Below, piece by piece: positions 36,714 through 48,357 of a stretch of 54,993 nt of DNA. The stretch's first letter is position 1, and every line of letters begins with the position of its first letter. The stretch spans positions 1 to 54,993 of the forward strand of contig QHNQ01000031.1 in NCBI GenBank assembly GCA_003218135.1, read 5' to 3'. A program made the position numbers and the translations under genes. The notes under the pieces were generated by a model that did no database searches, was not told the origin of the DNA, and saw only the letters and a list, made by a program, of their open reading frames with translations. The stretch comes from Verrucomicrobiota bacterium. GTDB lineage: Bacteria > Verrucomicrobiota > Verrucomicrobiia > Chthoniobacterales > UBA10450.

Positions 36714-37457
36714 TCACGTGTCGCGTGCGTCGAGCCATTGCAGGGCAAAGCGTGCGACTTCGCGCGAATTTTTCAGATCCAGTTTGTCTTTGATGTGGGC
36801 TCGGTGGGTTTCCACCGTCTTGGGGCTCAGATGCAGCAGCTTTGCAATCTGACGGACTTCGTGGCCTTTGCCGATCAGTTCCAGGACTTCCAGTTCGCGA
36901 TCGCTCAGTCTCTCCACGGCATCGGTCTCGCCTTCGGCCTGACGATGGGCGAATTTTGTTATCACCTGCGCCGCCATGGCCGGGCTGAGATAAGGGTGTC
37001 CGTTAAAAACTTCGCGGATTGCGTTGATCACATTGCCCATTGCTTCGTGTTTCATAACGTAACCGTCCGCTCCGGCACGCAGCGCGCGCACTGCGTAGAG
37101 CGATTCATCATGCATCGAGAGCACGAGAATTGGCAGCCTCGGAAATTCTGCGCGGATGTTTTTGATAAGCTCAATCCCATTAGCGCCCGGCAAACTGAGA
37201 TCGACAATCGCCATATCGGGAGCCAGTTTGCGAATGATCTGCATGGCTTCCGCGGCGTTCCCTGCTTCGCCGCAGACGGCGAAGGTCCCATCGGAATGAA
37301 TCATTTCCTGGAGTCCCTTTCGAAATAGCGGGTGATCATCCACGATCACGATGCGTTTTGCCTCCGGTGGATCGCATCGGGGATTCTTCTTTGACGCGCG
37401 CGCAACGTTGGTTTGAGCTGTGGGCGGTTCGGCTGGCGTTGTCGCACTGCGAGTCAT
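36714..37457 (-). CDS. Response regulator, NarL/FixJ type with LuxR HTH
   Basis: A 247-residue DNA-binding response regulator. Receiver domain from about residue 34: RIVIVDDHPLFRKGLQEMI, phosphoacceptor Asp in DMAIVDLSLPGANGIEL, switch Ser/Lys region LVLSMHDE and GADGYVMKHEAMG. C-terminal LuxR helix-turn-helix: LSDRELEVLELIGKG then EVRQIAKLLHLSPKTVETHR. The N-terminal 33 residues are a disordered Pro/Thr/Ala leader. It lies 61 bp downstream of the histidine kinase gene on the same strand and is its probable partner; target genes are unknown. Confidence 0.94.
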   Translation of the reverse strand: MTRSATTPAEPPTAQTNVARASKKNPRCDPPEAKRIVIVDDHPLFRKGLQEMIHSDGTFAVCGEAGNAAEAMQIIRKLAPDMAIVDLSLPGANGIELIKNIRAEFPRLPILVLSMHDESLYAVRALRAGADGYVMKHEAMGNVINAIREVFNGHPYLSPAMAAQVITKFAHRQAEGETDAVERLSDRELEVLELIGKGHEVRQIAKLLHLSPKTVETHRAHIKDKLDLKNSREVARFALQWLDARDT

Positions 37458-37518: not shown

Positions 37519-39624
37519 TTAGATCAAGGCCGCCAAAGCGTTTGCGATTTTCCCTGGGAGCCCTGACCTGGCGTTTTCTTTCTTGCGCGATTGTAATGCC
37601 TTATTCGGTAAATAACAGGACACGCGCGTGCCGCCTCGTTTTGGGGAGTCGATTTCCAAACGGCCGCCCATCAATTGAGCGCGGTAATTCATGATGTGAA
37701 AACCGAGGCCTCGTCTCAGTTCCGCCCCATTTGAAAATCCGACACCATCATCGGTTACCCGCAAAACCATTCCCCCTGGCGATCGCTCCAAGCTGACGAC
37801 AATTTCCCGCGCTTGCGCATGCTTGCTGGCGTTAATCACTGCTTCGCGGGCGATGCGATAGAGCTGCGCCGCAACTGCGTCATCCTCAATTTGAAATGAC
37901 GGTTTGACTTCCAGCCGGCAGGGCACTCTCCAGATTTCCCGGTCAACCAAATCTTGCAATGCACCAGTCAGTCTGGGCGCGTCGATGTCGCTCCGATGCA
38001 AAGCGCGGGAAAGATTGCGCATGTCGCTCGCACCTTGGTTTACTAGCTGCGCGATTTTCTCGATATCACTTACTTCGATGACACGATGGTTCTTCAGACG
38101 CAACGCGACCGAGCGCGCCATGAATGCGACCGCGGTGAGGTGTTGGCATACTCCGTCATGTAGTTCCTGACCCAGCCGCTGTTGCTCCCGGTCGGAAACA
38201 GCAAGAATCTCTCCTTCCAGCCCCTTGCGACGCGCGATCTCTTTTTTTAATTCTGTATTTGCCGCGTCTAACTCGTGGGTTCGCTCGCGGACGCGCGCTT
38301 CCAGCAGTCTTTTCGACTCTTGCAAAGCTGATTCCGCATGTTTGCGCTCACTAATGTTACTACTGTAGACGCGCAGGCGTCTGGTTTTTGGAATGCGGAC
38401 CGCGGTCGCTGCGTAACACGATTTGCCGACGTTGATTTCAGCGTGAACGGCTTTTGTTCTGCCTTCGAGCAGCGGCTTGGCGGCTTGCATCACCCGGACA
38501 ACAAAGGGATGTCGAAGTTGCAGGCGTTGCAGGTCGGGAAATGCTTCAAAGGTGGTGGGATTCGCGTAGTAAATCGCATTCGTTTCCAAATCGAATTCCA
38601 GAATCGGGTTTGGATTATCCCGTGGATAGGCAGCAAGCCACTTCACTTTTTCTTCAGCAGCTTTGTGCTCAGTGACGTCGCGCACTGCGCCGATCGTGTA
38701 TAGCGGGGTCCCGTCGGCATGGCGCACGAGCGAGCGCAGTATTTGAACCCAGATAATCGCTCCGTCCTTTCGCACGAAACGTTTTTCAATTTCATAAAAC
38801 GGAATCTCACCTGCCACGAGTTGACGATGCAGTTTGATCTCGCGCGAATAATCTTCTTTGTGTGTTACATCTTTGATGCCGCGTTGCATCAGCTCCTCTT
38901 TTCTGTATCCCAGAATGCGGCAGAACTCTTCGTTCGCGCCAACGTATTTCCCCTCCGGTGAACATTCGGTGATGCCAATCGGCGCGCGTTCGTAAGTTGC
39001 TTGCAGTCGCTGGCTACTCTCCTGCAACGCTTCCTCTGCGCGTTTGCGCTCACTCAAATCCATGATGGCGGTTTGATAGAGCAGCGCGCCGTTTCTCGTC
39101 GTCGAAGTAATCGGCCTGCTACAAAGGAGCGCCGGAATCCGCTCGCCTTTTCTCGGCTTCAACTCTAATTCCGTTTCCACCTGTTGCTGCGACGTGCGGC
39201 AATAAAGCAAGTGCCGCATGAACGAATCCAAATCGCCCACGTAGAACGCGAACGGCCGGCCGATTAACCGATCCCGCGGCTCACCAAGCAACTCGGTCGC
39301 CGCCAGATTGGCTTCCTCAATCCGTCCGGCGCGGTCGAAGCTGACGTACGCGATCGGCGCAAAATCGTAAAGATCGATAAATCGCTGAATGGCGGCTTCC
39401 AGTTCGATTTTTGGATTCCGGAACGCTGGCACGCCCCTGGAACGAACAGGCGCGCCATTCTTCCTGACCGTCCCGGGCGTTCCTTTCGTCATTTTCGTGG
39501 CTGCTCGAATGGATTTGCGATTGCGTCGGACGGCACCATCCCGGTTTTGGCCATCACGCTTTGCCCGGTGCTTCTTATTTACGCGACGAGACATCTTTCG
39601 TCTCGCTGCCTGTTTTAGTTTCAT
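37519..39624 (-). CDS. PAS-domain sensor histidine kinase (HPK7 / HisKA_3 type)
   Basis: A 701-residue kinase without clear membrane helices. Strongly basic N-terminus (KKHRAKRDGQNRDGAVRRN), then three PAS regions: about 85-190 (FAPIAYVSFDRAGRIEEANL), about 205-330 (APIGITECSPEGKYVGANEE with a PAC end IGAVRDVTEHKAA) and about 335-430 (NPILEFDLETNAIYYANPT). A coiled coil leads to the dimerisation-phosphotransfer box EQQRLGQELHDGVCQHLTAV with the His, and the ATPase domain with AREAVINASKHAQA, DDGVGF and GLGFHIMNYRA. Start overlaps the stop of the CheB-CheR gene by 4 bp. Probably cytosolic, perhaps receiving input from the CheBR protein. Confidence 0.93.
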   Translation of the reverse strand: MKLKQAARRKMSRRVNKKHRAKRDGQNRDGAVRRNRKSIRAATKMTKGTPGTVRKNGAPVRSRGVPAFRNPKIELEAAIQRFIDLYDFAPIAYVSFDRAGRIEEANLAATELLGEPRDRLIGRPFAFYVGDLDSFMRHLLYCRTSQQQVETELELKPRKGERIPALLCSRPITSTTRNGALLYQTAIMDLSERKRAEEALQESSQRLQATYERAPIGITECSPEGKYVGANEEFCRILGYRKEELMQRGIKDVTHKEDYSREIKLHRQLVAGEIPFYEIEKRFVRKDGAIIWVQILRSLVRHADGTPLYTIGAVRDVTEHKAAEEKVKWLAAYPRDNPNPILEFDLETNAIYYANPTTFEAFPDLQRLQLRHPFVVRVMQAAKPLLEGRTKAVHAEINVGKSCYAATAVRIPKTRRLRVYSSNISERKHAESALQESKRLLEARVRERTHELDAANTELKKEIARRKGLEGEILAVSDREQQRLGQELHDGVCQHLTAVAFMARSVALRLKNHRVIEVSDIEKIAQLVNQGASDMRNLSRALHRSDIDAPRLTGALQDLVDREIWRVPCRLEVKPSFQIEDDAVAAQLYRIAREAVINASKHAQAREIVVSLERSPGGMVLRVTDDGVGFSNGAELRRGLGFHIMNYRAQLMGGRLEIDSPKRGGTRVSCYLPNKALQSRKKENARSGLPGKIANALAALI

Positions 39625-42242
39625 CGCTTTTTCTTCGTTCCATCGATATCCACGAGCGTGAGAACGGCCCCGTCGATTTTGTTGTCGGTCGTGCGATACG
39701 GCCGCACCCGAAGCGAATACTTGCGGCCGCCTTTATCGGTCACTTTGCGCTCGCGCGTGCCCAAGGTCTCGATCACTTCGCGCAAAACGTTTTCCAAATC
39801 GGGCACGTCAATGTTTGGCCGCAGCTCGCTTAGCGGACGGCCGATGTCGGTGGGCAAAATATTAAACGCCGCGCGCGCGGCAGGCGTTGCCCGCCGCACC
39901 GTCAACGCATTGTCCACCATCACGATCGGCATTTGAATGCTGGCCAGCAGATTGTTCAGCTCGTTGGTCAGCTCCATCATCTCGAGGTTTCGATTGCTCA
40001 GCTCTTCGTTCAGCGTGGTCAGCTCTTCGTTGGTCGATTGCAATTCTTCCTTCGACGTCTCGAGTTCTTCGTTGGTCGATTGCAGTTCTTCATTGCTCGA
40101 CTCAATTTCTTCGTTGGCCGACTTCAGTTCTTCATTGGTCGCCTCCTGCTCTTCGATGATGGTTTGCAACGACTCTTTGGAAGCGGCCAATTCCCGGTGC
40201 AGCTCAGCCACGTCGCGTTGCGCAGCCGTTTTCCCCAGCGCCCGCGGCACTTTCGCCAGCTTGGTTCCTTTGGTGGTCTCGTCAAAAATGACCAGCAGCC
40301 ACGATTTGTCGGAGCCTGGGATTTTGAATGGCACAGCCTGAATATTTATTTCGTAGCTTCTGCCCTTGAGCTTAATTCTCGCTCGCTCTTTCCGCGCGGG
40401 TTTGTCCGTCTTGATGGCGTGCTTAATCGTGGCGCGCAGGTCTGCTACCAGAGTCGGTCGCGCAAGCTGGAGGAGATTGAATGTCGCCGGACCGGGCGCG
40501 TGTTCGAGAAACAACTCCGTCCGGCCGCGGAATTGTTGCACGTGCATATCTTGATCGATCACGACCGCCGCCGGCGCGTAGGCACCGAGCATGATGCGGT
40601 CGGCCACTTTCAAAAGATCGCCCCCGAAATTTGCGCCAGCACCGGCTGTCGATCTTGTCCCGAAGCGCGCGAGTTCAAGGCCAAGCTGCGGGATGAGGTC
40701 CATCGTGTGCGGCGTGGTCACGGCTGCTTTCACGTAAATTTTATTTTTCTTGTCCGCCAATTTGAAAAGCTCGTCGTACAGGCCCACCGATTCGGCCGGC
40801 CCGAGAATCAAGTAGCCGCCGGAATTGAGAGCGTAATGAAACTGCGGGATGCAGCGCTTGTGCAGTTCCGGGCTCAAATAAATGAGGACGTTGCGGCAAC
40901 TGATCAGGTCCAGCCGGGAAAAGGGCGGGTCGACACAGATGTTTTGCCGCGCGAACGTGCAGATGTCGCGCACGTTGCGATGAATTTGGTAACTGCCGTC
41001 CCGCTTCACGAAAAATCGTTTCAATCGCGCGGACGACACGTCCTTTTCGATCGCGCTGGAATAAATTCCCAGCCGCGCATGTTCGATCACCGACTCGCTC
41101 AGATCGGTGCCGAAAATCTGGATGCGCATTTTGGATAGACCGCTGCCGAGCGTTTCCAGAATGCAAATGGCGAGCGAATACACTTCTTCGCCAGTCGCGC
41201 AACCCGGTATCCACGCGCGCAACTCAGGTTGTCGATCTTTGCTTTTGTTTTTGAGCAGAGCCGGCAGGAAACGTTTCTTTAACGCACGGAACAGTGCTTG
41301 GTCCCGAAAAAAGCGCGTCACGTTAATGAGCAAATCGTCAAAGAGCGCTTCGATTTCCTTTTTGTTGTCGCGCAGGAACCGCGCGTATTGACTTATCTTT
41401 TCGATCCGGTGCAGCGCCATTCGCCGTTGGATCCGCCGGATCAGCGTGCTTTCCTTGTAGGCGCTGAAATCGACACCCATTTGCTTTTTCAGCGACAAAA
41501 AGATGCGGCCCAGATCGTCCGCCTGGCGATAGGCGGCTTTTTCGATTTCCTCCGGATCGCTCAGTCCCCGCCGGATATAGGGATGATTGGCGACGCGCTC
41601 GATTTCGCGCGCAATTTCGCGCGGCGTCAGAACAAGATCGACAAAGCCTGCGCGGATCGCGCTCCGCGGCATCGCGTCGAACTTCGCGCTCTCTTGATTT
41701 TGGGCGAACGTCAAACCGCCGGCCGCTTTGATCGCGCGCAGACCGGCTGTGCCGTCGCTGCCGGTTCCGGAGAGGACGATGCCGATGGCGCGCGATCCAC
41801 ATTCTTCGGCGAGCGATTCAAAAAAGTGGTCGATTGCAACGTTGAGCCGCTCCTCACGCTGAACCACTGTGAGCGTGCCATCCTTGGCGATGACACATTT
41901 GTTCGGCGGCTGCACGTAAACCGTGTTCGGTTTTGGCGTCGTCGTTTGTGTGACTTCGCTCACTGGCATCGCCGTCACTTTGCCGAGCAAATTAGGAAGC
42001 CGGCTGGCATGATGCGGATCGAGATGTTGCACGATCACAAACGCCATGCCGGTTCTCGACGGCAAATTGCGCAACAGTTCCATTGCCGCTTCAAACCCGC
42101 CGGCTGAGCCGCCGATACCGACTATTGGGCAGGCAGGGGATTTGTTTGCCGTTGTCCTGCTCTTGGACGCACGTGGCGCTTTGGCCGCCATCACAGCCCG
42201 CCGCTGCGCCCGGGGCTTTTTTGTTTTTGCTTTAGAGGGCAC
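39621..42242 (-). CDS. CheB-CheR-PAS fusion protein
   Basis: An 873-residue multidomain protein. Basic N-terminus, then a CheB methylesterase domain (about 38-220): GIGGSAGGFEAAMELLRNLP with the catalytic Ser, VIVQHLDPHHASRL with the His, LSGTGSDGTAGLRAIK with the Asp. CheR methyltransferase domain (about 245-510): SLKKQMGVDFSAYKESTLIR, WIPGCATGEEVYSLAICI (SAM loop), FDLISCRNVLIYL-like RLDLISCRNVLIYLSP. A PAS region, a long Glu/Asn coiled coil with repeats (ELQSTNEELETS) and a final PAS domain (IQMPIVMVDNALTVRRATPA) follow. Such proteins usually feed histidine kinases, not flagellar chemotaxis. No MCP, CheA or CheW is present nearby. Overlaps the kinase start by ATGA. Confidence 0.95.
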   Translation of the reverse strand: MPSKAKTKKPRAQRRAVMAAKAPRASKSRTTANKSPACPIVGIGGSAGGFEAAMELLRNLPSRTGMAFVIVQHLDPHHASRLPNLLGKVTAMPVSEVTQTTTPKPNTVYVQPPNKCVIAKDGTLTVVQREERLNVAIDHFFESLAEECGSRAIGIVLSGTGSDGTAGLRAIKAAGGLTFAQNQESAKFDAMPRSAIRAGFVDLVLTPREIAREIERVANHPYIRRGLSDPEEIEKAAYRQADDLGRIFLSLKKQMGVDFSAYKESTLIRRIQRRMALHRIEKISQYARFLRDNKKEIEALFDDLLINVTRFFRDQALFRALKKRFLPALLKNKSKDRQPELRAWIPGCATGEEVYSLAICILETLGSGLSKMRIQIFGTDLSESVIEHARLGIYSSAIEKDVSSARLKRFFVKRDGSYQIHRNVRDICTFARQNICVDPPFSRLDLISCRNVLIYLSPELHKRCIPQFHYALNSGGYLILGPAESVGLYDELFKLADKKNKIYVKAAVTTPHTMDLIPQLGLELARFGTRSTAGAGANFGGDLLKVADRIMLGAYAPAAVVIDQDMHVQQFRGRTELFLEHAPGPATFNLLQLARPTLVADLRATIKHAIKTDKPARKERARIKLKGRSYEINIQAVPFKIPGSDKSWLLVIFDETTKGTKLAKVPRALGKTAAQRDVAELHRELAASKESLQTIIEEQEATNEELKSANEEIESSNEELQSTNEELETSKEELQSTNEELTTLNEELSNRNLEMMELTNELNNLLASIQMPIVMVDNALTVRRATPAARAAFNILPTDIGRPLSELRPNIDVPDLENVLREVIETLGTRERKVTDKGGRKYSLRVRPYRTTDNKIDGAVLTLVDIDGTKKKR

Positions 42243-43235: not shown

Positions 43236-43355
43236 TTGTTCTGTCGCTGCCGCTGCATAATCCGTGACGCGCCCTCTACCCGAAACCCGACCGCTGTTTT
43301 TCTTCATTTACGTGTAGAACGCATGCCTCGACGGAGTTGGATGTGGTTTTTAGCT

Positions 43356-43427
43356 GTAGTCGGCATCGGTGATGCCGGGTCCGTCCAAGCATTTGAATTT
43401 CTACCGGGGATCGCCGATCCCGGCTGC
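43356..43427. repeat. REP-like element upstream of zinc-ribbon gene 1
   Basis: GTAG at 43356 then hairpin CGGCATCGGTGATGCCGG, a spacer, and hairpin CCGGGGATCGCCGATCCCGG ending CTGC. Same layout as the other GTAG palindromes but with a degenerate right foot (CTGC in place of CTAC). Confidence 0.65.
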
Positions 43428-43439
43428 AGCACGCACCTG

Positions 43440-43486
43440 GTAAGATTTCGACTGATGCCACAATCCACCGCGCGCCCGATTGTGCG
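43440..43486 (+). promoter_or_regulatory. Conserved 47-bp upstream element, copy 1 (CACAATC-N12-GATTGTG dyad)
   Basis: GTAAGATTT (43440-43448), CTGAT (43452-43456), then the exact inverted repeat CACAATC (43459-43465) and GATTGTG (43478-43484) followed by CG. By my count 33 of 47 positions match copy 2 at 44024-44070, with invariant CACAATC and GATTGTGCG. It ends about 31 bp before the GTG start proposed for zinc-ribbon gene 1. Likely an operator or promoter shared by both genes. Confidence 0.7.
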
Positions 43487-43517
43487 ATTACCTGCTCCAC
43501 ACGTAATATGCCCAGTC

Positions 43518-43925
43518 GTGACGTTGTCTCCTCCAATTAAGTTGTCGGATGCAGATAAATTGGATGCGTTGCACCGGCTCGATCAGTTCCGACAGTGGCG
43601 TTCTCTGGAGGAAAAACGTTACTGCTTGGTTTGCGGCAAAATCATTACGGGCCGGCAAATCCAGGTAGAGGGCGGGACACGAGGCAATGGAGCGCTACGG
43701 GTTAGTTGTCCGACAGAACGTTGCAACTCAATTCCGATGGATTGGGTACTGCCTACGGATGAAATCCTCGCGAAGGTGGAGAGGATGCTTGCCGAAGAAC
43801 GCGAAGCTGCAGTAACGACTCCCGTTAGGCGCGGCAACGGAGGGCACGAGCCCAGCAATGGTGGACACAACGGGATCGCATCGCGATTGCGCGAGTTCGC
43901 GTTCCATTTCAAGCGACGTTGGTAA
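43518..43925 (+). CDS. Zinc-ribbon-like small protein 1
   Basis: About 135 residues if read from GTG 43518 (TLSPPIKLSDADKLDALHRL). Core: DQFRQWRSLEEKRYCLVCGK, GRQIQVEGG, VSCPTERCNSIPMDWVLPTD. The cysteines CLVC and CPTERC form a CxxC/CxxxxC zinc-ribbon pattern. It aligns with gene 2 (44104-44436) along the whole core. The C-terminal tail LREFAFHFKRRW is basic. GTG 43518 is chosen because the N-terminus then aligns with gene 2 and the dyad element lies upstream, not inside the gene; an in-frame ATG at 43455 would place the dyad in coding sequence. Function unknown, probably regulatory. Confidence 0.65.
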   Translation: MTLSPPIKLSDADKLDALHRLDQFRQWRSLEEKRYCLVCGKIITGRQIQVEGGTRGNGALRVSCPTERCNSIPMDWVLPTDEILAKVERMLAEEREAAVTTPVRRGNGGHEPSNGGHNGIASRLREFAFHFKRRW

Positions 43926-44023
43926 GGCGGTCCCCTCCAACTCCTGCGGGCCTCAGCCCTGGGCGGGCCCGCAGACTCCGCCATCAGCAATACCAGCGTT
44001 TGCTAATCGGCAGATGTGATCTC

Positions 44024-44070
44024 GTAGGATTTTATCCGATCACACAATCATCCAGCGCCCCGATTGTGCG
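44024..44070 (+). promoter_or_regulatory. Conserved 47-bp upstream element, copy 2 (CACAATC-N12-GATTGTG dyad)
   Basis: GTAGGATTT (44024-44032), CCGAT (44036-44040), CACAATC (44043-44049) and GATTGTGCG (44062-44070), with the same 12-bp spacing as copy 1. It ends 33 bp before the ATG of zinc-ribbon gene 2, and so lies before the zinc-ribbon/ECF sigma operon. Confidence 0.7.
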
Positions 44071-44103
44071 TTTTCGAAGCAATGAGCAGACTGCTTTTGC
44101 ATT

Positions 44104-44436
44104 ATGACCAGCCATTTTAAACTTGATGATCGCCTCTCGGTCTTGCGCGCCGAAGATCGATTTAGAACCTGGAGCTCGCTCGATGACGAGCGTCTTTGCA
44201 TTATCTGCAAAAGAAAATTTAATGGCCGCCAGGTGGAAATCCGCCGCTTTGGCAATCGCAAACACGAATTGCGCTGCCCAACCGAAGGTTGCAATTCAAG
44301 GCCACATCTATGGATCTACCGAACGACGCCGCTCGTGTCTCATGTGGTTGAATCGGACTGGTGGCGTGCTGCCAATGGAAAGCACGAACGCAGTGAGCCT
44401 GTGTCAGCGCTGCGGACACACGCTCAGCGCATATGA
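44104..44436 (+). CDS. Zinc-ribbon-like small protein 2, overlapping the sigma factor gene
   Basis: A 110-residue protein from ATG 44104 (MTSHFKLDDRLSVLRAEDRF). Core DRFRTWSSLDDERLCIICKR, FNGRQVEIRRFG, LRCPTEGCNSRPHLWIYRTT parallels gene 1 and keeps the CxxC...CxxxxC zinc pattern. Its stop TGA overlaps the ATG of the ECF sigma factor gene as ATGA, so they are translated together. A small metal-binding protein encoded just before an ECF sigma factor could be its regulator, but it lacks the HxxxCxxC motif of known zinc anti-sigma factors. That role is inference. Confidence 0.72.
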   Translation: MTSHFKLDDRLSVLRAEDRFRTWSSLDDERLCIICKRKFNGRQVEIRRFGNRKHELRCPTEGCNSRPHLWIYRTTPLVSHVVESDWWRAANGKHERSEPVSALRTHAQRI

Positions 44437-45032
44437 TCGATTCCACTCTTGATCAGCCCGGAGCAGGATCTGTCCCGGACGAGGTGCTCATGAAAGATAT
44501 TTCGCGCCGGCGTCACGACGCGCTCACCGAGTTATACGGCAGACACAGCAAACGTTTGCGAGCGACGATCGATGGCGTTGTTCACGAAGAGGCCGAAGCC
44601 GACGATGTTTTACAGGAAATTTTTCTTCAGGTTTGGGAAGAGGCAGGTCGCTATTCACCAAAGGCGGGCAAGCCGCTTGGCTGGATGGTGACCATTGCGC
44701 GCCGTCGCGCTATCGACCGATTGCGCCGGCGCCAGGCTTATTGTCGTGCGCGAGATCGCTACGAGAAACAAGTCATACAAGATTCGCAAACTCCGCGTCG
44801 CGATGCATCCCGAACTTTGGTTCTGAATGATCTCCATCATTTCTTGAAGAAAACCATCCGGGCATTGCCTCAATTTCAACGCGAAGCCGTGGAGTTGGCT
44901 TTCTTCAAGGGATTGAGCCACAGGGAAATTGCCGCCGCGACACACGCTCCGCTTGGAACGGTAAAGACGCGACTCGAACTGGGGTTGCAAAAACTGACTC
45001 ACGCGCTGAGACCGTTGCGGCACAAAGTGTGA
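44433..45032 (+). CDS. ECF-type RNA polymerase sigma factor
   Basis: About 199 residues (MIDSTLDQPGAGS); a shorter start at ATG 44490 is possible. Sigma region 2: LTELYGRHSKRLRATIDGVV then EADDVLQEIFLQVWEEAGRY, and TIARRRAIDRLRRRQA. Region 4: LPQFQREAVELAFFKGLSHR followed by EIAAATHAPLGTVKTRLELG. Domain order, spacing and length match group 4 (ECF) factors. Directs RNA polymerase to a specific promoter set, unknown here; the dyad elements upstream are candidates for self-regulation. Co-translated with zinc-ribbon gene 2. No anti-sigma with a membrane helix is nearby. Confidence 0.92.
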   Translation: MIDSTLDQPGAGSVPDEVLMKDISRRRHDALTELYGRHSKRLRATIDGVVHEEAEADDVLQEIFLQVWEEAGRYSPKAGKPLGWMVTIARRRAIDRLRRRQAYCRARDRYEKQVIQDSQTPRRDASRTLVLNDLHHFLKKTIRALPQFQREAVELAFFKGLSHREIAAATHAPLGTVKTRLELGLQKLTHALRPLRHKV

Positions 45033-45923: not shown

Positions 45924-46259
45924 ATGCAAACTCCTGAGATTACCGCTTATTTAAAAACCCATTGTGGCTGGAGTGCCGGTGTCCGCGCTCTGCTGGCTAA
46001 ATACAATCTTCCATACACCGAAAAGGACATTATCCAGAATCCGGCGTTTCGCTGGGAAATGGAGACCAAAAGTGGGCAGCCACTGTCGCCGTGTGTTGAA
46101 ATCAACGGGCGCATGCTGGCCGACATTAGCGGCGAGGAAGTTGAACGATACTTGATCGACAACAAGCTCGTTCAGCCGAGCGATGCTGCCACGGATGTTC
46201 CCACCAATGCGCCTTGTGCGAACGAGCAACACGAAGGCGTGGTGAAGGTGAATTTGTAA
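45924..46259 (+). CDS. Glutaredoxin-like protein
   Basis: A 111-residue protein with the thioredoxin-fold glutaredoxin layout: ITAYLKTHCGWSAGVRALLA, PYTEKDIIQNPAFRWEMETK, then LSPCVEINGRMLADISGEEV (the cis-Pro region reads LSPCVEI) and the C-terminal helix. The active site is CGWS rather than CPYC, so it is a monothiol or atypical type. The tail ATDVPTNAPCANEQHEGVVK is Thr/Asn-rich. Substrate unknown. It is separated from the CsbD-like gene by a terminator. Confidence 0.85.
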   Translation: MQTPEITAYLKTHCGWSAGVRALLAKYNLPYTEKDIIQNPAFRWEMETKSGQPLSPCVEINGRMLADISGEEVERYLIDNKLVQPSDAATDVPTNAPCANEQHEGVVKVNL

Positions 46260-46261
46260 TT

Positions 46262-46380
46262 GGTTAAAAGGGTTACAACGTTAAATCGTTGAACCGCTGA
46301 AAGGTTAAAGAGTCAAAAGGTTAAGCCGCTTTTAATCCCGCGATGGCGGGATAACTCTTTTAACTTTTTTAACCTTTCAG
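46262..46380. repeat. GGTTAAA-type inverted repeat before the PBP gene
   Basis: GGTTAAAGAGTCAAAAGGTT on one side and TTTTAACTTTTTTAACCTTT on the other, with the inner hairpin ATCCCGCGATGGCGGGAT. The related sequence TTAAACTGCTGAAGCGTTG occurs at about 29036. It sits directly before the start codon of the next gene. Confidence 0.7.
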
Positions 46381-46382
46381 CG

Positions 46383-48357
46383 ATGCAATTCTTCGCTCGT
46401 CTCCGGTCACGAAAAAAGAAAAGCGGCAGCATTCTTTTCCGATACGGCTGGAAGATCACGCTGCTCATTCTGCTATTGGGACCAGGCTTTGCGGTTTTTC
46501 TTTTCTACGGCACATGGGCGCAAACGTTCGACATGAAGAACGTCGGCGAAATGCCGGAACGAAACACCGTTTACGATGTCGATGGAAAGATTTACAGCCG
46601 CCTCGCGGGCGCTAATCGTCTCAAGGTTTCCTTGAGCGAGGTCTCTCCGTTCTTCATCGCCGCGGTGCTGGCGCGCGAGGATACTCGCTTTTCAGCAGAT
46701 TCTCGAGCTTTACGTAAACCGCATTTATTTCGGCACTGGCTGCTATGGAGTCGAAACAGCCTCGCAACTTTATTTTGGCAAAAACGCCTCAAAGCTGAAT
46801 CTCTCCGAAGCAGCGCTCCTGGCTGGGTTAATCCGAAGCCCAAACCGGCTTTCGCCGCTCAAGAATCCCGAGGGCGCAGCGATGCAGCGAAATGCGGTTC
46901 TGGATCGGATGGTCGCATTAAAGAAAATCTCGCTGCAGCAGGCCGAAGAGGCGAAAAGGATAAAAATCGTGACGCACCCCAAGCGAATGCCCCAGATCCA
47001 GGAGAATTATGCAATGGACGCAGTCCAACGTCATTTGAATCAGTTGTTGGCGCAGGACCAGATCGATAATGGCGGGCTCTCGATCTACACGACGCTTGAT
47101 CCCACAGTGCAAAATTCCGCGCAGGACGCGCTCGAGAAGCAACTCACGAAGATCGAGCATCAGTCGAATTTCCATCATCCGCTCAAAGCAGATTACAAAC
47201 CGCCTGAGAACGGGGAAGGGGATTCGGCCATGCCTTACCTGGAAGGCGCGGTGGTTGTAATTGATAATACCAGCGGCGGCATTCGCGCGCTCGTCGGAGG
47301 TCGGGATTACGCGCAAAGCAAATTCAACCGCGCGCTGGCCCCGGCAAATCGGCAGGTTGGTTCCGCGTTCAAGCCGTTTGTTTACACCATTGCGTTTAGC
47401 CACGGTTTGTTGCCGAGTACAGCGATCAGCGATGGCCCGATTCAGCCCGGCGAAATCGACGGCGCGGGAAATTGGTCGCCGGCAAATTCCGACGGCACCT
47501 ATGGCGGCACCATGCTTTGCTCGTACGGGCTCATCCATTCACGCAACACCATGAGCGTGCGCGTTGGACAATTCGCCGGACTTGATGCCGTGCAAAAAGT
47601 CGCGAACGACCTCGGCATTTCTCAAAACGTCCCGCACGGTCCGGCCATCTACATCGGCTCATTCGAGACAGACCTGAAAGATCTCACTGCCGCGTATTCT
47701 ATTTTTCCCAACGCTGGAGTGCGAAAGCAAGCTTACATCATCGAGCGGATCGACAACCAACAGCACAAACCGATTTATCGCTCCGCACACATCTTGACAC
47801 CGGCGCTGGATCCTGGCGCAGCCTGGATGACGTCGCGGGTGATGGAAGAAGTTCTGACCGAGGGCACCGCCGCCAGCGCGCGTTCACTTGGATTCAAATT
47901 GCCTGCGGCGGGTAAGACCGGCACCACCAATGATTACAAAGATGCTTGGTTTCTCGGTTACACCAGTACGTTGACTTGTGGCGTGTGGGTCGGATTCGAT
48001 CAGCCGACAACCATTATTCCACGCGGTTACGGCGCTGCTCTCGCATTGCCGGTTTGGGTTCAAGTTATGAACAAAGCGGCACAACATTATCCAGCCGAAC
48101 CGTTGCAGCCTACCATGGCATTGCAACACACGACCGTCTGTTCGATTTCCAACCAACTTGCCACCACCGGCTGCATGGCGGCGGGGACTGCTTACGATAT
48201 TGATTTGCCCGCGGACAAGATACCCACCGCCGCCTGCCAGGTGCATGGGGGTGCGCAATGGCCGTTTGCACAACAACCGCCAGGCGTTCCGCAGCAACCA
48301 GCGACGCTCCCCGGCCGTTTCTTTCGATCATTCAGGAGACTCTTCGGCGGACGATAA
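46383..48357 (+). pseudogene. Class A penicillin-binding protein (PBP1A type), frameshifted by internal deletion
   Basis: Bifunctional peptidoglycan synthase with glycosyltransferase (GT51) and transpeptidase domains. From ATG 46383 (MQFFARLRSRKKKSG) a membrane helix and the start of GT51 are normal up to VLAREDTRF (46683-ish). Then the frame shifts: the next GT51 sequence, QQILELYVNRIYFGTGCYG, lies one frame over and follows directly, although roughly 65-75 residues including the QQLARN motif normally separate them. The transpeptidase domain in the second frame is complete: SxxK in GSAFKPFVY, SxN in IHSRNTMSV and KTGT in AAGKTGTTNDYKDAW. So about 200 bp are lost. Real or assembly-derived, as in nuoH. 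Confidence 0.88.

Follow-up and report, generated by a model that had tools for sequence, protein, structure and literature searches.

A bipartite promoter-like element upstream of zinc-ribbon and ECF sigma factor genes in Chthoniobacterales

We describe a 47-bp element that lies at a constant position upstream of two paralogous zinc-ribbon genes in a Verrucomicrobiota bacterium (order Chthoniobacterales). In relatives it recurs, with a fixed distance between its two blocks and in a recurring gene neighbourhood, upstream of zinc-ribbon genes, ECF sigma factor genes and some stress-type genes; because of this recurrence it looks like the on-switch of an undescribed stress circuit. Judged from its sequence, the element may be a regulated promoter that combines an activator-binding dyad with a sigma-70-like core, the likeliest activator being a NarL/FixJ-type response regulator. 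We give this reading about an even chance of being right.

Two copies of the element upstream of paralogous genes

The window, i.e. the whole stretch of 54,993 nt of contig QHNQ01000031.1 that was analysed, contains both copies of the element at the coordinates given in a preliminary description (Table 1). The copies agree at 33 of 47 positions, the same number as counted before, while 20,000 shuffles gave a mean of 11.9 and a maximum of 24; their flanks are at background identity (29/100 upstream, 7/33 downstream). Likewise, the distance of about 30 bp noted earlier between the element and the gene starts was measured as 31 bp for gene 1 and 33 bp for gene 2. The dyad CACAATC-N12-GATTGTG occurs exactly at 43459-43484 and 44043-44068, and with up to two mismatches these are its only matches in the window, where 0.27 were expected and two were reached in 3 of 100 shuffles. 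The genome-wide search proposed in the preliminary description returned the two window copies as the only exact matches in the genome of origin (2.75 Mb assembly, 87% complete). A motif search of this genome also yielded these two as its strong sites, and no further strong site was found in the window or, among the best first-look candidates scored (the best 150 or 31 per genome in this search and in the searches with models R1 and R2), in the genome. By eye, a REP-like palindrome (near CCGGGATCGCCGATCCCGGCT) is seen upstream of gene 1 at 43350-43435, and also at loci L018, L023, L007, L022 and L033.

Table 1. Positions in the window of the element copies, their parts and the neighbouring genes
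Feature	Position	Strand	Remark
NarL/FixJ-type response regulator (Response_reg + GerE), candidate activator	36714..37457	-	
PAS histidine kinase (HisKA_3, HATPase_c)	37519..39624	-	
CheB-CheR-PAS fusion, divergent from gene 1	39621..42242	-	
47-bp element copy 1, before zinc-ribbon gene 1	43440..43486	+	model R1 E 1.5e-11; copy itself part of R1
Upstream dyad box of copy 1, TAAGATTTCGACTGA; family form TARG-N7-CCTA	43441..43455	+	pairing in 40 non-genus sites
-35-like hexamer TTGTGC, copy 1	43480..43485	+	
-10-like hexamer TAATAT, copy 1	43504..43509	+	18-bp spacer; inferred transcription start 1-2 nt before GTG
Zinc-ribbon gene 1, CxxC...CPTxxC	43518..43925	+	GTG start; no Pfam match over cut-off
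47-bp element copy 2, before zinc-ribbon gene 2/ECF operon	44024..44070	+	model R1 E 1.2e-13; copy itself part of R1
Upstream dyad box of copy 2, TAGGATTTTATCCGA	44025..44039	+	pairing in non-genus sites
-35-like hexamer TTGTGC, copy 2	44064..44069	+	
-10-like hexamer CAGACT, copy 2	44087..44092	+	17-bp spacer; predicted leader ~5 nt, start inferred
Zinc-ribbon gene 2, CxxC...CPTxxC	44104..44436	+	ATG start; no Pfam match over cut-off
ECF sigma factor, start overlaps gene 2 stop	44433..45032	+	Sigma70_r2, Sigma70_r4_2

The element is widely kept in the genus. It was found upstream of 25/25 gene-1 and 26/27 gene-2 orthologues with enough upstream sequence (regions shorter than 60 bp were skipped here and in the non-genus count, and L039, whose match began only at residue 21, was left out), the single miss being the gene-2 region of L036. 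The exact dyad is present in 11 of 58 genomes including that of origin; all 11 are among the 35 genus genomes and none among the other 23. Model R1 matched with E ≤6e-8 in 33 of the 35 genus genomes and weakly in G004 and G005 when the best first-look candidates were scored, high scores of R1 and R2 being partly due to construction since both models contain sites from many of the searched genomes. Invariant bases are dispersed along the entire element (alignment A1, 49 sites). In the sister genomes L014 and L017 a 12-bp insertion splits the otherwise ungapped gene-2 element; both count among the 26 and were excluded from A1 for this insertion. L036 itself has, within a single 298-aa frame, a tandem of two gene-2-like zinc ribbons.

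As the two genes are adjacent paralogues, the similarity of their upstream regions might be no more than a relic, without function, of a recent duplication event. However, a tree of 51 proteins separates genes 1 and 2 of the genus into two branches, each with full support, and both genes have kept the element; moreover its flanks are at background identity and it recurs at unrelated genes. A recent duplication was rejected on the basis of the tree and the flanks, and we assign a relic a practically negligible probability. Thus both ways in which, according to the preliminary description, its proposal could fail, absence of the motif upstream of orthologues and similarity by segmental duplication only, were examined and neither was observed, in the genus or, as regards the motif, at the non-genus homologues described below; its central claim, that paralogous zinc-ribbon genes share an upstream cis element, finds good support.

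Symmetry, spacing and core-promoter features

For 46 non-genus homologues the best upstream 47-mer exceeded the 99% level of shuffles in 39 cases and every one of 2,300 shuffles in 32, and scored above zero in 28; these shuffles, like those of the -10 analysis below, were mononucleotide, and the sites share ancestry. Of the 39 47-mers above the 99% level, 35 are located 27-57 bp upstream of the hit. From an initial 42 non-genus sites, two of the genus type were removed; the remaining 40 have the consensus.TaaGgaTTT.aCCTA.......atc.g.cg..cgcCcGATTGc. Their best symmetry lies at centre 9 (0.74; next 0.55), with pairing of positions 2-16 in 100%, 5-13 in 97%, 3-15 in 57% and 4-14 in 42% of the sites, which were picked by a genus-trained matrix, a choice that favours certain bases of the dyad. 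The 91 genus-type sites have their best symmetry at centre 16.5 (0.71), with centre 9 second (0.63) and pair 3-15 formed in only 12%.

These data change the view of which symmetry is recognized. The perfect 7-bp dyad proposed at first is exact in both window copies, but it is partly particular to them and not the ancestral symmetry: the three outer pairs are not formed in 26, 19 and 17 of 47 distinct genus sites, so that only the AATC/GATT pairs form regularly, and these hold in 30-72% of the 40 non-genus sites. As the recognized symmetry CACAATC-N12-GATTGTG was therefore given up outside the genus, where centre 9 is best.

The family-wide pattern can be written as TARGG-NN-TTT-NN-CCTA, 20 bp, CCNATTG. 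Two bipartite patterns, composed after sites in some of the same genomes were known and allowing spacers of 18-22 bp, gave 5 matches in 197 genomes of the order and 10 in 61 genomes of the family; all 15 have exactly 20 bp between the blocks, and reversed controls gave none. The 15 matches precede ECF genes (7), zinc-ribbon genes (6), the 38-aa gene of a DUF892-type operon (1) and no recognized gene (1). In an order-wide draw, model R2 matched 24 of 25 genus members as well as nine other family genomes and two others of the order, several of these weakly (best first-look candidates scored). Partial R2 hits in L158-L160 and at locus L206 failed in the matrix scan. At L317 a family-type element was seen that is followed by neither a zinc-ribbon nor an ECF match; the next codons resemble the start of a zinc-ribbon gene.

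The downstream block carries features of a core promoter. A hexamer with A at position 2 and T at position 6 follows the -35-like TTGYGY at 16-18 bp in 79% of 117 sites, compared to 18% in shuffles (maximum 29%); other three-base offsets reach 3-32%, all in mutually related sites. Hence the elements expected of a sigma-70-type core (-35 TTG, -10 NANNNT, 16-18 bp apart) are present, though in interrelated sites, and the window copies read TTGTGC-18-TAATAT and TTGTGC-17-CAGACT. Transcripts are predicted to begin ~1-5 nt before the start codons, which would place the centre of the upstream dyad near -67. We also considered that the perfect 7-bp inverted repeats of the window copies, close to the start codons, could act post-transcriptionally as the stem of a leader RNA hairpin (CACAAUC/GAUUGUG). 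The -10-like box sits downstream of this stem, though, the frequently open outer pairs show no covariation above shuffles, and no Rfam family matched the element up to E 5. A structured RNA leader was rejected for lack of compensatory changes and of an Rfam family; we regard it as very improbable.

Genes behind the element and its candidate regulators

Besides zinc-ribbon genes, the ECF gene is the most constant target. It is the neighbour of gene 2 in 19 of the 20 genus contigs retrieved (L222 ends at the ECF gene-gene 2 region, and gene 2 of L210 was matched over residues 1-30 only) and is present in 23 of 40 short non-genus loci. At 10 of these 23 it follows gene 2 directly, with the element before gene 2 in 9; at the other 13 (L168-L175, L181, L183, L195, L198, L204) the element precedes the ECF gene itself in every case (matrix score >5). 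Together with the bipartite matches this gives good support to the link between the element and the coupled sigma factor that had been suggested from the window alone.

Other genes stand behind most of the 31 element sites that do not precede zinc-ribbon genes (L073-L097, our count and reading). Among the ORFs listed there, a GGQ-rich small protein occurs at 8 sites, a 38-aa hydrophobic protein and/or DUF892 at 7 (DUF892 in six), one DUF3309 subtype at 4 (one frame-broken), protein-kinase-like genes at two and an FHA-like gene at one; one locus has a PRC-barrel gene further on, and 8 sites have no assignable close gene behind them. Pfam confirms DUF3309, DUF892, DUF1328, BON and PRC among the proteins at such loci. 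When the families were taken as the starting point, the element was found in 1/40 DUF3309 upstream regions (from 30 loci, one of the entries being a misread frame), to which the motif search adds three DUF3309 genes (L078, L081 and the frame-broken L084), and in 6/30 DUF892 loci. These six belong to the seven loci of the HELKDLY subtype, the seventh of which has 222 bp of upstream sequence, too short for the usual distance. These counts led us to reject the element as a general marker of DUF3309 or DUF892 genes. It was absent before the neighbouring CsbD (0/10), glutaredoxin (0/9) and lipoprotein (0/14) genes tested. By eye, the different genomes of L073, L075 and L076 show closely similar stress-gene islands that carry one element type, and the element type also appears in another genus (L188); this likeness may reflect transfer of a gene together with its promoter.

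The genes next to gene 1 encode a two-component cluster (Table 1). Of 20 genus contigs, 14 carry CheBR, kinase or regulator genes, including 8 with the regulator, and 13 of 40 short non-genus loci carry a CheBR-, kinase- or regulator-like gene. At 7 of these 40 loci the gene is regulator-like (42-69% identity) and a possible orthologue. At L194, from another family of the order, the gene order is HK-RR-element-gene 2-ECF. A NarL/FixJ operator would be expected to occur with a receiver plus LuxR-type regulator encoded nearby, as is the case here, and to contain a short inverted repeat upstream of the core promoter; such a repeat is found at centre 9 in non-genus sites and, as the second-best and imperfect symmetry, in genus-type sites. 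The neighbouring regulator also gave a Sigma70_r4_2 match (E 1.2e-6, over the cut-off) that overlaps the GerE match and may reflect a shared helix-turn-helix signal. Elsewhere in the window (46250-46385), between the glutaredoxin and penicillin-binding-protein genes, an inverted repeat AAAGGTTAA/TTAACCTTT was noted by eye.

Which protein binds the element? The preliminary description proposed that the zinc-ribbon proteins do so and regulate their own genes, which are indeed among the most constant genes behind the element. The family, in which eight positions are invariant among 34 aligned members, four of them cysteines, has no NCBIfam match at E 0.1. Its predicted model (pLDDT 76.5) consists of a single short zinc ribbon plus an N-terminal helix and found no convincing fold match in the PDB (best E 1.4), which speaks against this proposal, as does L321, where an ECF gene follows the element and no zinc-ribbon gene was seen in the 3-kb locus, a homologue being encoded elsewhere in that genome. 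We consider this proposal unlikely; in our view the response regulator encoded nearby, which the preliminary description did not mention, is the better candidate binder.

The strongest rival is autoregulation by the coupled ECF factor, because, apart from the zinc-ribbon genes, no target is as constant as its gene. The factor would recognize CCGATTG plus a -10 box, and the element would be an ECF promoter under the control of its own factor, supplemented by an activator site further upstream. The ECF gene shares an operon with gene 2 behind the element in the genus contigs, it has its own element at the non-genus loci where it stands apart and at nearly half of the bipartite matches, and the -35-like block extends beyond a simple TTG. 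The CheBR (0/5), HK (0/3) and RR (0/2) genes tested lack the element, while ECF and zinc-ribbon genes usually have it, a distribution that autoregulation by these two kinds of protein would explain equally well. On the other hand, the downstream hexamer keeps mainly A2 and T6 at a spacer that varies from 16 to 18 bp, as for sigma-70, and the conserved symmetric block lies upstream, outside the region where a sigma factor is expected to bind. We therefore hold ECF autoregulation to be possible, though clearly less probable than activation by the response regulator.

Two things lead us to favour the NarL/FixJ-type regulator: the position of its gene and the similar look of boxes published for its family. 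According to this model, a dimeric activator would bind the upstream dyad TARG-N7-CCTA (TARG-N7-CYGA in the genus) and, at a fixed distance, would help RNA polymerase to use the sigma-70-like core, with TTGYG inside GATTGTG serving as the -35 and the -10 lying 16-18 bp downstream. Such an activator would act on the zinc-ribbon genes and on the ECF sigma factor coupled to them; in several relatives some of the small stress-type genes would be targets as well. A stress signal could thus pass from the PAS kinase, encoded with the CheB-CheR-PAS protein near gene 1, to the response regulator, which would switch on the zinc-ribbon proteins and the ECF factor and thereby a second wave of genes. More tentatively still, and with slightly less confidence than we grant to ECF autoregulation, the CheBR-PAS protein, kinase and NarL-type regulator, the bipartite box with its fixed phasing and the zinc-ribbon and ECF genes could constitute a family-wide system in Chthoniobacterales in which the zinc-ribbon protein is a new ECF partner or anti-sigma factor; no anti-sigma family was named among the neighbouring proteins scanned.

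Relation to known regulatory systems

A description of the motif or its regulon was not found among the titles and abstract openings listed from the open-access literature searched. The motif yields a promoter that can be tested, and it assigns a zinc-ribbon family so far without annotation to a regulatory circuit that also includes an ECF sigma factor and a two-component system. In a search of named public sequences the relatives of the ECF gene nearly all came from metagenome assemblies, mostly of Verrucomicrobia and one of them Candidatus Udaeobacter, which leaves few options for tests in culture; a regulon motif readable from the genome offers a handle on possible stress sensing in these soil bacteria.

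As given in the excerpts of the respective papers, the UvrY box reads TGTAAG-N6-CTTACA (PMC4682653) and the RcsAB box TaAGaatatTCcta (PMC4325325), and UvrY crosslinks both at an upstream repeat and near the -35 (PMC4682653). The dyad of the element resembles these UvrY/SirA and RcsAB boxes, as excerpted, in being a T..G...C..A inverted repeat of ~14-18 bp upstream of a core promoter. However, its arms are 7 bases apart rather than six, and it has a second block at a fixed distance downstream, unlike the boxes in those excerpts.

Like autoregulated ECF promoters, the element stands upstream of an ECF sigma gene and is found again at a limited set of genes. ECF promoters usually have a strict pair of -35 and -10 boxes with a fixed spacer and a strong -10. 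Measured against this general consensus, the element differs in its upstream dyad, its loose -10 and its variable spacer of 16-18 bp, while its -35-like block is strict. Finally, the neighbourhood resembles the PhyR-NepR-EcfG system of Alphaproteobacteria, in which a kinase, a response regulator and an ECF sigma factor also come together and which directs a general stress response with stress genes of similar kinds. PhyR carries an N-terminal sigma-like domain; in contrast, the regulator encoded next to the zinc-ribbon genes consists of a receiver followed by a LuxR-type domain.
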